33,025 nt of DNA from a bacterium (GTDB lineage: Bacteria > Actinomycetota > Acidimicrobiia > Spongiisociales > ZC4RG35). The position numbers and the translations under genes were made by a program. The notes under the pieces were generated by a model that saw only the letters and a program-made list of their open reading frames with translations, was not told where the DNA came from and searched no databases. Below, piece after piece: positions 13,295 through 21,334 of the stretch (positions within the stretch are counted from its first letter, which is position 1; every line of letters begins with the position of its first letter). The stretch covers positions 1-33,025 of the forward strand of contig JAPPFC010000029.1 in assembly GCA_028824015.1 (NCBI GenBank). The letters run 5' to 3'.

Positions 13295-14214
13295 GAGACG
13301 GTGGTGACCGTCGTCTCAGAACTGAGCGGCGCCGCAGGATAGCCGATCACGTTGATGCCCTCCACCGCCAACTCCTTGTAGACGGTGCCGTTGCGGACTT
13401 CCGCGTCGTACACGGTGGTGATGGTCAGATTGAGTTGGTTGGTTCGCATGACCGCCAAGTCGATGATCTGGGATCCGAGGCGGTCCACGAGGTTGAGGGG
13501 GATGGCGACACCGCTGTCGCTTCCCGCTTCCATGGTCCTCACCCTGAAGTTCTGGTAGAAACGATCTTCGTCACTGATATTGACCCACTCCAGGCGGCGA
13601 ATCGTGATGGGCTGCTCGAAGACCAGGCTTATGGTGACCTGAGTGCCCGGGGTGATGTCTGTCCACCTTATCTGCCACTCGCCGGTCTTTCCATTTATCA
13701 GGTTGTCACAGGAGTAGATGGCTCCCAGTCCCTCCGGGGTACATTCCACGCTCAACACTCCCTGGGTGGTGGGGATCGGTGGGGGAGCAGTGGTGGTGGT
13801 GGTTTCTTCGACCGCCACGGTCTCTTCGGGCGCCTCCCCGTTGTCTTCGGATCCGCCGGTGAAGAGGTTGAAAAGCAGGGCGAACACCGCTACCGCGAAG
13901 ATGGTCGTCCCCGTGGCGATTACCGCCCTTACCCGAGCATTCGTCCCGATAGTGGGTCGGGGAGCGAGAGGCATATCCGCTTGGTTGAGTCTTATGTGGC
14001 ACTGCTCACAACTCTGCCGGGAAGGAGGGTTGAGGTGGCCGCACAAAGAGCAGGCCACCATGTTGTGGGTGGAGGGGTAGGCGGCCGGGGCGTCGTCTTG
14101 GGTGGGCTCGTCAGTCGGTGTTGAAGGGATCGGCCTTTCAAGGAGAGCGCCGCACGAGGAACAAAAGTCAGCGTCTCCGACATCAGCGCCGCATCGACCG
14201 CAGATCTGTCTCAT
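13291..14214 (-). CDS. Zinc-ribbon membrane protein with C-terminal discoidin-like domain
   Basis: A 307-residue protein of unknown function. The N-terminus carries two zinc ribbons: CGRCG...CSSCG (about residues 5-20) and CSLCG...CEQC (about 54-71). A single membrane segment, AVIATGTTIFAVAVFALLFNL, follows at about 97-117, then an acidic and Thr/Pro-rich linker. The C-terminal 140 residues look like a discoidin/NADase-type glycan-binding beta-sandwich (INGKTGEWQIRW, ISLVFEQPITIRRLEWVN). Topology is probably zinc ribbons inside and binding domain outside. The frame is open to 14337, but the conserved part starts MRQICGRCG, so ATG 14214 is used. It is divergent from disA with a 106-bp gap and overlaps the P450 stop by 4 bp in convergent orientation. 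Confidence 0.75.
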   Translation of the reverse strand: MRQICGRCGADVGDADFCSSCGALLERPIPSTPTDEPTQDDAPAAYPSTHNMVACSLCGHLNPPSRQSCEQCHIRLNQADMPLAPRPTIGTNARVRAVIATGTTIFAVAVFALLFNLFTGGSEDNGEAPEETVAVEETTTTTAPPPIPTTQGVLSVECTPEGLGAIYSCDNLINGKTGEWQIRWTDITPGTQVTISLVFEQPITIRRLEWVNISDEDRFYQNFRVRTMEAGSDSGVAIPLNLVDRLGSQIIDLAVMRTNQLNLTITTVYDAEVRNGTVYKELAVEGINVIGYPAAPLSSETTVTTVS

Positions 14215-14320
14215 AGCCAGCCTATTTTGGCACAATCTCCGGGGTGGAAGGTTGATTTCACTTGTGGAGCCAAGGTACCCTGTCCGGTCTCTGTTGTATA
14301 CACCGTCAGAGTGATGATAC

Positions 14321-15445
14321 ATGGCTGAATCCGGCAACCTCTTTGCTAGCCTGAAAGCTGTGGTGGGAGACCGAACAACCCAAGAAGTGGTGGAGAGACT
14401 ATTCTCACATCGTCCTATCCGGGACGGGTTGGAAAGGATACTTCAGGCCAGGGAGGGAGCACTGATCGTGCTCGGTTCAAATCCCGATTTGCAATACATC
14501 AGCGTCGACGGACTGCAGATAGCATCTGTCGGCTTTGACGCGGCCCGTCTATCGGAAGTGGCGAAGATGGACGGAGCGATAATCCTCGACAATTCGTGGA
14601 AGAGCATCCTTACAGCCAACGCCCACCTCTCCCCTCCGGTGGACCTCCCCACCACCGAATCGGGGTCCCGGCACCGTACCGCCCAGCGGACCGCTCACGT
14701 AACCGGCCTGCCGGTTGTCACGGTGAGCAAAGACAGGGCGGTAGTCACCCTCTATTTCAACTCCGAGCAGGCAGACCTCACTCCCCGCTGGACAATCCAT
14801 AGGCGGATACTCCACCACCTTCAGATACTCGTAATGATGCGCAAGCGCTTCGACGAGGCCGAGGAGCATCTCCTGCGGATGGAGTTGCTTGGGCTGGTGA
14901 CCAGCAGGGACGTGGCGCACGTGCTCAGGTTGGGCGAGTTGGTCGTCAGGGCTGCATCCGGCATCGAGGCCATGGTGGTCGACTCCGCCCAGGACCCGGA
15001 CACCACCGCGGCTGTTGTGGCGGATCGAGTCTTCGAAGTGGAGAGACTGGTGCAATTGACATTGATGGACTATCTGGGTGACGACTGGGATGAAGCCCGC
15101 GGGACGCTGGCCGGATTGATGGGACACAAACTCGCCTACACCTGGCTTGTGGATACAGAGGTAGGACTGGCCGACCTGGATGCAGAGCTCATCCCGCGCG
15201 GGCACCGACTTCTGTACAGGACCGGAGTTGTCACCAAACGTTTGAGGGTGGTCCTATTGGGGGATTTCCCCGATGCCCAGGCACTGCTGCATGCGCCCTT
15301 GGAACGCTTTATGGAGGTGAAAGGAGTAGGCCATAAGACCGCCACCAGGTTGAGGCACTACTTCGACCGGCTGCTGGCCGCTGTTCACCCCATAGGACAA
15401 CGGGTGCTCACAGACGGGCGCAATTCGTATAATCCTCTTCCATGA
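14321..15445 (+). CDS. disA: DNA integrity scanning diadenylate cyclase DisA
   Basis: A 374-residue DisA, which makes cyclic di-AMP from two ATP and responds to branched DNA. The N-terminal DAC domain has the catalytic D-G-A in KMDGAIILD (about residues 82-90) and the R-H-R-T-A motif in GSRHRTAQR (about 116-124). A helical linker follows, then a C-terminal helix-hairpin-helix DNA-binding segment (LERFMEVKGVGHKTATRL, about 326-343). All expected domains are present, and the length is slightly above the family norm because of a C-terminal tail. There is no strong Shine-Dalgarno at the ATG. Its stop overlaps the carD start (ATGA at 15442-15445), so DisA and CarD are translationally coupled. Mycobacteria keep the two genes near each other but not fused in this way. 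Confidence 0.93.
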   Translation: MAESGNLFASLKAVVGDRTTQEVVERLFSHRPIRDGLERILQAREGALIVLGSNPDLQYISVDGLQIASVGFDAARLSEVAKMDGAIILDNSWKSILTANAHLSPPVDLPTTESGSRHRTAQRTAHVTGLPVVTVSKDRAVVTLYFNSEQADLTPRWTIHRRILHHLQILVMMRKRFDEAEEHLLRMELLGLVTSRDVAHVLRLGELVVRAASGIEAMVVDSAQDPDTTAAVVADRVFEVERLVQLTLMDYLGDDWDEARGTLAGLMGHKLAYTWLVDTEVGLADLDAELIPRGHRLLYRTGVVTKRLRVVLLGDFPDAQALLHAPLERFMEVKGVGHKTATRLRHYFDRLLAAVHPIGQRVLTDGRNSYNPLP

Positions 15446-20648: not shown

Positions 20649-20654
20649 TATAGT
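20649..20654 (+). promoter_or_regulatory. Candidate -10 box for the redoxin gene
   Basis: TATAGT (one mismatch to TATAAT) ends 8 nt before the ATG at 20663. There is no Shine-Dalgarno between them, so a leaderless transcript is likely if the box is used. No -35 of note. Confidence 0.35.
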
Positions 20655-20662
20655 GCCTGCGA

Positions 20663-21334
20663 ATGACCCTACCTGATTTCACCCTTGATGACCAGGCCTG
20701 CCAACCCTGGAAACTCAGCCATCACCTGGACGCGGGGGTGCTTCTGGTGTTCCTCCGCGGCGATTGGTGACCCTACTGCAACGGCCAGTTGGCCAGCCTG
20801 GCGCACCGCCACCAGGAGATCCTGGCGGCAGGGTTCCGCACCGCGGCGATCGACGTCGACTCCCCCTCCCGGCATGCGGCAATGGTGGAGAAGCTGAAAC
20901 TTCCCTTCCCGATGCTCTCGGATCCCGATCGCTCCCTCGCCATTGCTCCCTATGGGCTGGCCGACCACCAGGATCCGCGCCGGGTGGCCCGGCCCGCGCT
21001 GGTGGCGGCGCTGCCCGGAGGACAAGAGGTGTACCGGTTCGTGGCGCGGGACTTTGCCGACCGTCTGTCCGAGGACACTCTGGTGGAGATGCTAGCCTCG
21101 CATGGGCTTCCGCCCACAACCCAGCCGCCGCCTACGCCGGGTCATCCTGAGCCCGGGCCGCGGGCCATGCCTGTCCGGGCCATGGTCCCCTACTTCCGGG
21201 GAGGCCAGTACGTGGCCCTCTCCCTGGGTATGCGTCACCGCCACCTGGGAGAGGAGTTCCGGGATGACGCCGAGGCCTTCATGGCGGAGATGGAGCGTTT
21301 TACTGAAGCCGTCAAGGCCCTGCGGGACCGTTAG
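20663..21334 (+). CDS. Predicted selenocysteine-containing redoxin (U-x-x-C), UGA at 20768-20770
   Basis: A 223-residue thioredoxin-fold redoxin of the AhpC/TSA-like type, if UGA at codon 36 is read as selenocysteine. Translation from ATG 20663 gives MTLPDFTLDDQACQPWKL, then LLVFLRGDW-U-PYCNGQL, and continues without a break for 187 more codons (FRTAAIDVDSP, LPFPMLSDPDRSLAIAPYGL, YRFVARDFADRLSEDTL). Cysteine homologues of this family have W-C-P-Y-C at exactly this place, so UGA stands where the attacking Cys should be. The first 35 codons fit the family too (beta strand before the active site). A hairpin able to act as a bacterial SECIS starts just after the UGA. Conventional gene calling would start at TTG 20789 and lose the active site. 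The alternative is a recent nonsense mutation (TGC to TGA). The function would be thiol or peroxide redox chemistry. Confidence 0.8.
20768..20805 (+). promoter_or_regulatory. Candidate bacterial SECIS hairpin
   Basis: Immediately 3' of the in-frame TGA (20768-20770) the sequence can fold in more than one way. One hairpin is GGCC-AGTT-GGCC (20783-20794), with its loop starting 16 nt after TGA and a G in the first two loop bases. Another is CAAC-GGCCA-GTTG (20779-20791), with loop GGCCA recalling GGUCU of E. coli fdhF but closer to the TGA. A third is GCCAG/CTGGC (20784-20802). Stems are short, so the element is plausible rather than proven. Confidence 0.4.

Follow-up and report, generated by a model that had tools for sequence, protein, structure and literature searches.

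The locus at positions 20663–21334 raises the question of whether a TGA codon inside a redoxin gene is a stop or a codon for selenocysteine (Sec). The window, i.e., the whole stretch of DNA that was analyzed, is 33,025 nt and represents one complete contig (C20) of a 2.9 Mb genome assembly that has 60 contigs and is 95% complete. The best explanation of the locus as a whole, with a probability of about 95% as judged from sequence data, is a gene for a 223-residue Prx-like thioredoxin-fold selenoprotein in which Sec would be inserted at UGA codon 36 in a SelB-dependent manner.

Translation of 20663–21334 gives M-TLPDFTL...RGDW*PYCNGQL...RDR*, with the TGA in the context FLRGDW-TGA-PYCNGQL. The TGA is the sole internal stop and is followed by 187 sense codons and a TAG. 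This agrees exactly with the initial annotation, which described one frame from ATG 20663 to 21334 broken only at codon 36. An in-frame TAG four codons 5' of ATG 20663 closes the frame upstream, and the start is therefore well bounded. Downstream of the TGA, the list of open reading frames has a 181 aa ORF with TTG 20789 as a possible start, which is the truncated product that the initial annotation had named. The coordinates of the features are in Table 1.

Table 1. Positions of the features of the selenoprotein locus in the window
Feature	Position	Strand	Evidence
TATAGT, -10-like hexamer, 8 nt before ATG	20649..20654	+	TANNNT 5–10 nt before start in 23/37 orthologues
Complete selenoprotein frame, 223 codons + TAG	20663..21334	+	Translation with TGA = Sec; dN/dS
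AhpC/TSA (thioredoxin-fold) domain, residues 3–101	20669..20965	+	Pfam PF00578, E 3.5e-22
TGA, codon 36, proposed Sec codon	20768..20770	+	Homologue column: TGA 68/82, Cys 11, Ser 2, Asp 1
U-P-Y-C redox motif, codons 36–39	20768..20779	+	Cys39 invariant in A1; Prx and ResA chain alignment
Candidate bacterial SECIS hairpin	20783..20803	+	Synonymous constraint, pairing, Sec/Cys contrast
Conserved fold A, loop GGCC 20791–20794, 20 nt after UGA	20784–20802	+	
Alternative fold B, loop AGUU, 16 nt after UGA	20783–20794	+	
Conserved C-terminal extension, about residues 146–223	21098..21331	+	Conservation in A1; no Pfam/NCBIfam match

The read-through protein matches the Pfam AhpC-TSA model (PF00578) with 79.1 bits (cut-off 26) across residues 3–101, which places the TGA inside the domain. 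The same single TGA is found in orthologues that span 43–87% identity, the nearest named relative being an Acidimicrobiia MAG at 87%. A search of 138 genomes of the order shows 37 places at E < 1e-53, each with one TGA. Every full-length orthologue in these genomes has exactly one TGA, which in the extracted sequences lies in the codon-36 column, and no full-length Cys form was seen among the 138. Given the Pfam match across the TGA and the orthologues that share it, the open frame is far beyond chance.

Profile searches of the class and phylum contributed more distant homologues; a plasmid search gave distant relatives only, with query coverage of 64% or less and identity below 41%. The position of the TGA is common to more than 60 related genomes. 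In the alignment of 82 homologues, Cys occupies the codon-36 column in 11 (nine in an RGDWC context and two in distant RGGWC proteins that form the outgroup). An in-frame UGA is thus present where homologues have Cys, the pattern looked for in a selenoprotein, and the pairing of U36 with Cys that the initial annotation proposed to look for is borne out.

A pseudogene, i.e., a redoxin that once had Cys here and acquired the TGA by nonsense mutation, would be in keeping with the single base that separates TGA from TGC and with the Ser or Asp at the codon-36 position in some relatives of one family (f71). However, 68 homologues retain the TGA, and within the order it persists to identities as low as approximately 43%. 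Comparisons with four relatives give dN/dS values of 0.08–0.21 before the TGA and 0.14–0.20 after it, and the codons on both sides are under purifying selection. No other frame damage is present in the gene, and none was seen in relatives. Conservation of the TGA across homologues and the constraint on the codons after it refute the pseudogene reading, whose probability is negligible, and agree with the earlier argument that 187 intact codons after the TGA speak against an old pseudogene.

In a maximum-likelihood tree, the clade of the window sequence consists entirely of Sec forms. The RGDW-type Cys, Ser and Asp forms are all located inside one other actinobacterial family, f71, among Sec forms, and three f71 genomes (G650, G731 and G465) have Sec and Cys paralogues together. 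The tree is midpoint-rooted, and the direction of exchange is likely from Sec to Cys. In one Cys form (L089, genome G676) the SECIS-like hairpin is still intact, as a recent change from Sec to Cys would predict. In three f71 members (L129, L131 and L133) Ser or Asp replaces Sec/Cys, and in two (L132 and L133) Asp replaces the second Cys; these four sequences are possible redox-altered derivatives. Several Sec forms (L082, L084, L095 and L108–L112) have an extra Cys no more than two residues from the motif (UPYCNC or UPYCC).

The TTG at 20789 provides a start for a C-terminal protein, and the locus could accordingly be read as two products that lack Sec, a 35-residue peptide and the protein that begins at this TTG. 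Only the genus of the window and part of family f1 have TTG as codon 43; it is CTG or CTC elsewhere, and the start is therefore not conserved. In addition, a single domain covers both halves, and selection acts on them alike. Two separate products are very improbable.

The initial annotation proposed a search of the genome for selA, selB, selD and tRNA-Sec, and all four are present. The tRNA-Sec scores 79.5 bits and is called SeC with anticodon tca by ARAGORN. Matches to SelA (399 bits), SelB (288 bits) and SelD (382 bits) complete the set expected of a bacterium with selenoproteins, and selA adjoins selB directly upstream. The host selD gene (G000, contig C16, positions 13691–14608, minus strand; L052) has an in-frame TGA at the N-terminal active site, HGAG-U-GCK, followed by a strong hairpin. 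SelD is thus likely to be a second selenoprotein, and the genome very likely encodes at least two.

Among high-quality genomes of the order, SelA is present in 19 of 19 that have the gene (counted by hand), and the gene is found in none of the eight without SelA. As a discriminating test this is consistent, but it has little power because SelA occurs in most genomes of the order. The genomes that have the TGA form and no SelA match are few and mostly incomplete by estimate. They include three of the order (G001, G101 and G129, 69–84% complete), of which G101 does carry a tRNA-Sec, and also G640 (93% complete, 590 contigs), G731 and G650. SelA is usually retained in genomes whose sole form is Cys, so that the choice of Sec or Cys is not tied to loss of the pathway.

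A bacterial SECIS element had been proposed to lie within 20768–20815, and a SECIS-type hairpin is found in this stretch. With correction for residue type, the ten lowest values of synonymous diversity among 217 seven-codon windows start at codons 35–44, at the TGA and immediately behind it, and codons 42, 44 and 45 show zero synonymous diversity. In fold A, numbered from the U of UGA, G17 to U23 pairs with A28 to C30 and U32 to C35, base 31 is bulged, and the loop is GGUC or GGCC. Across 42 sequences the fraction of paired cells is 96%, vs. 49% at best when the partners are slid. Five sequences have A-U or G-U in place of C-G at pair 18/34, base 18 being the silent third position of the Gly41 codon; 18/34 is the only pair of columns that covaries on both sides. 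Family f71 has a variant hairpin, GGGCA/UGCC.

Both stems are mostly lost in non-Sec homologues. The apical stem is intact in 55 of 68 Sec forms vs. 4 of 14 non-Sec forms (Fisher p 2.6e-4, relatedness ignored), and the basal stem in 63 of 68 vs. 5 of 14 (Fisher p 1e-5, relatedness likewise ignored). Minimum free energy folding is only mildly stronger than in synonymous shuffles (mean z -0.65). Since these plain folding statistics are weak, the case for a SECIS rests on the synonymous constraint and the contrast between Sec and Cys forms. The sequence in the window has two competing hairpins, fold A at -6.5 kcal/mol and fold B (GGCC-AGUU-GGCC) at -7.4 kcal/mol. Seven sequences in which pair 22/29 is broken may use fold B. 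The published model of the bacterial SECIS calls for a G among the first two bases of the loop and a distance of 16–37 nt between UGA and loop (PMC13188914). The GGUC or GGCC loop at 20 nt fits this model, as does the AGUU loop of fold B at 16 nt.

Conservation of the TGA does not by itself name the residue, and the codon might be read as something other than Sec by suppression or a change of code. Many orthologues, however, end on TGA as a normal terminal stop, so that UGA is not reassigned. Against such a reading there are also the tRNA-Sec, SelA, SelB and SelD in the genome, Cys as the exchange partner at codon 36, and a SECIS-like hairpin that Sec forms retain and Cys forms have largely lost. 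Insertion of a different residue is highly unlikely. The machinery, the Sec/Cys column, the purifying selection and the hairpin together strongly support the initial annotation in its assignment of the TGA to Sec, and SelB-dependent insertion of Sec at UGA36 is predicted with high confidence.

A TANNNT hexamer is located 5–10 nt 5' of the start codon in 23 of 37 orthologues, vs. a mean of 1.2 and a maximum of 5 in shuffled sequences. By comparison with known actinobacterial leaderless genes, this spacing suggests that the mRNA is leaderless and separately transcribed, and it backs both the start codon at ATG 20663 and separate transcription. A gene for an AI-2E-type transporter is located downstream and is common to the genus. 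No neighboring gene conserved across the order was found, and the gene context consequently gives no clue to function.

The solved structures closest to the protein are Bcp/PrxQ-type peroxiredoxins and ResA. When aligned with Bcp/PrxQ chains, the protein has U36 opposite the Ser/Thr of the peroxiredoxin (S/T)xxC motif and Cys39 opposite the peroxidatic Cys, and the Bcp-like paralogue of the host aligns in the same way. In ResA chains (PDB 3c71 and 2h1b) it is CxxC that aligns with UxxC. U-P-Y-C is a thioredoxin-like UxxC motif and not TxxU or TxxC. With U36 on the Ser/Thr position and Cys39 on the peroxidatic position, the center is thioredoxin/ResA-like in appearance. The U-x-x-C redox center that was first proposed has its counterpart in the CxxC of ResA. 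The description of codon 36 as the active-site Cys position is correct in that the codon matches the first Cys in a CxxC of the thioredoxin/ResA type; the classical peroxidatic Cys has its counterpart in Cys39 instead.

These alignments bear on mechanism. A true peroxiredoxin with Cys39 as the peroxidatic and U36 as the resolving residue is compatible with Sec and would be in accord with the alignment of Cys39 with the Cys of Bcp/PrxQ SPVC and TPGC and of U36 with Ser/Thr. Yet Sec in proteins is normally retained as the attacking nucleophile, and the ResA chains, with their first Cys on U36, match about equally well. The peroxiredoxin mechanism is unlikely, though it carries some weight. For the Prx-like selenoprotein, transcription would start at AUG 20663 or a few bases before it. 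SelB in complex with Sec-tRNA(Sec) and with the small hairpin 16–20 nt downstream would then direct Sec to UGA codon 36 in place of termination, which would give a product with the U36-P-Y-C39 center on an AhpC/TSA fold. By homology the protein would be a two-residue redox enzyme. A cycle via a U36–C39 selenenylsulfide that is reduced by a thioredoxin-like partner is proposed with moderate confidence. Family membership suggests hydroperoxides, or protein or low-molecular disulfides, as substrates and a thioredoxin-like system as the source of electrons.

The C-terminal extension has four residues invariant in A1 (Y177, R179, G180 and R191), and R212 is near-invariant. An AlphaFold2 model from a four-row alignment has a pLDDT of 39 and was set aside. 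A broader proposal is that of a distinct actinobacterial selenoenzyme subfamily with leaderless mRNAs, a selenol at the Thr position together with a Cys at the peroxidatic position, and an undescribed C-terminal domain that would give a new substrate or partner; taken as a whole, this is speculative and rather improbable.

The general kind of protein is already known. What is new is a well-populated actinobacterial clade whose conserved C-terminal extension lies outside Pfam and NCBIfam models, exchanges of Sec and Cys inside one family, and a distance between promoter hexamer and start codon suggestive of leaderless transcription of a selenoprotein gene. Since standard gene finders would truncate the gene and no NCBIfam model covers the protein, dozens of actinobacterial genomes are probably mis-annotated at this locus. 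The clean Sec/Cys pairs, some of them paralogues within one genome, provide test material for why Sec is kept or lost, and the seemingly leaderless mRNAs offer a testable case of SelB-directed decoding.

In comparison with known systems, the protein scores below the cut-offs of all NCBIfam models. The SelL-related redox protein (NF040769) comes nearest, a model that covers residues 2–92 and is matched by all 30 members tested; the score is 44.7 bits vs. a cut-off of 120, and the motif is UxxC whereas that of SelL is UxxU. PrxU (NF040737, TxxU) has the superfamily and the thioredoxin fold in common with the protein, but here Sec takes the first and not the peroxidatic position of the motif, and the score is 28.7 vs. 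270 bits. ResA/TlpA thiol-disulfide oxidoreductases have a CxxC that aligns with the UxxC, yet the protein scores 24 with the ResA model, whose cut-off is 170. A literature search gave no match to the motif RGDWUPYC. The Sargasso Sea survey described Prx-like selenoproteins as distant homologues of Prx with a thioredoxin-like UXXC in place of TXXU (PMC1088965). The protein has this feature and is placed with that group for this reason: it is a Prx-like (AhpC/TSA) UxxC selenoprotein by sequence, a kind known since 2005. The clade differs from the published Prx-like selenoproteins in its extension of about 80 residues and in its motif RGDWUPYCNGQL, although its sequences may already be part of those published sets. 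It resembles the Prx-like thiol:disulfide oxidoreductase selenoproteins (PF00578, UxxC/UxxU; "Prx-like 1" in the GOS survey) in its AhpC/TSA domain, UxxC motif, bacterial SECIS and Cys homologues (PMC1088965, PMC2398784, PMC9312934, PMC13188914).
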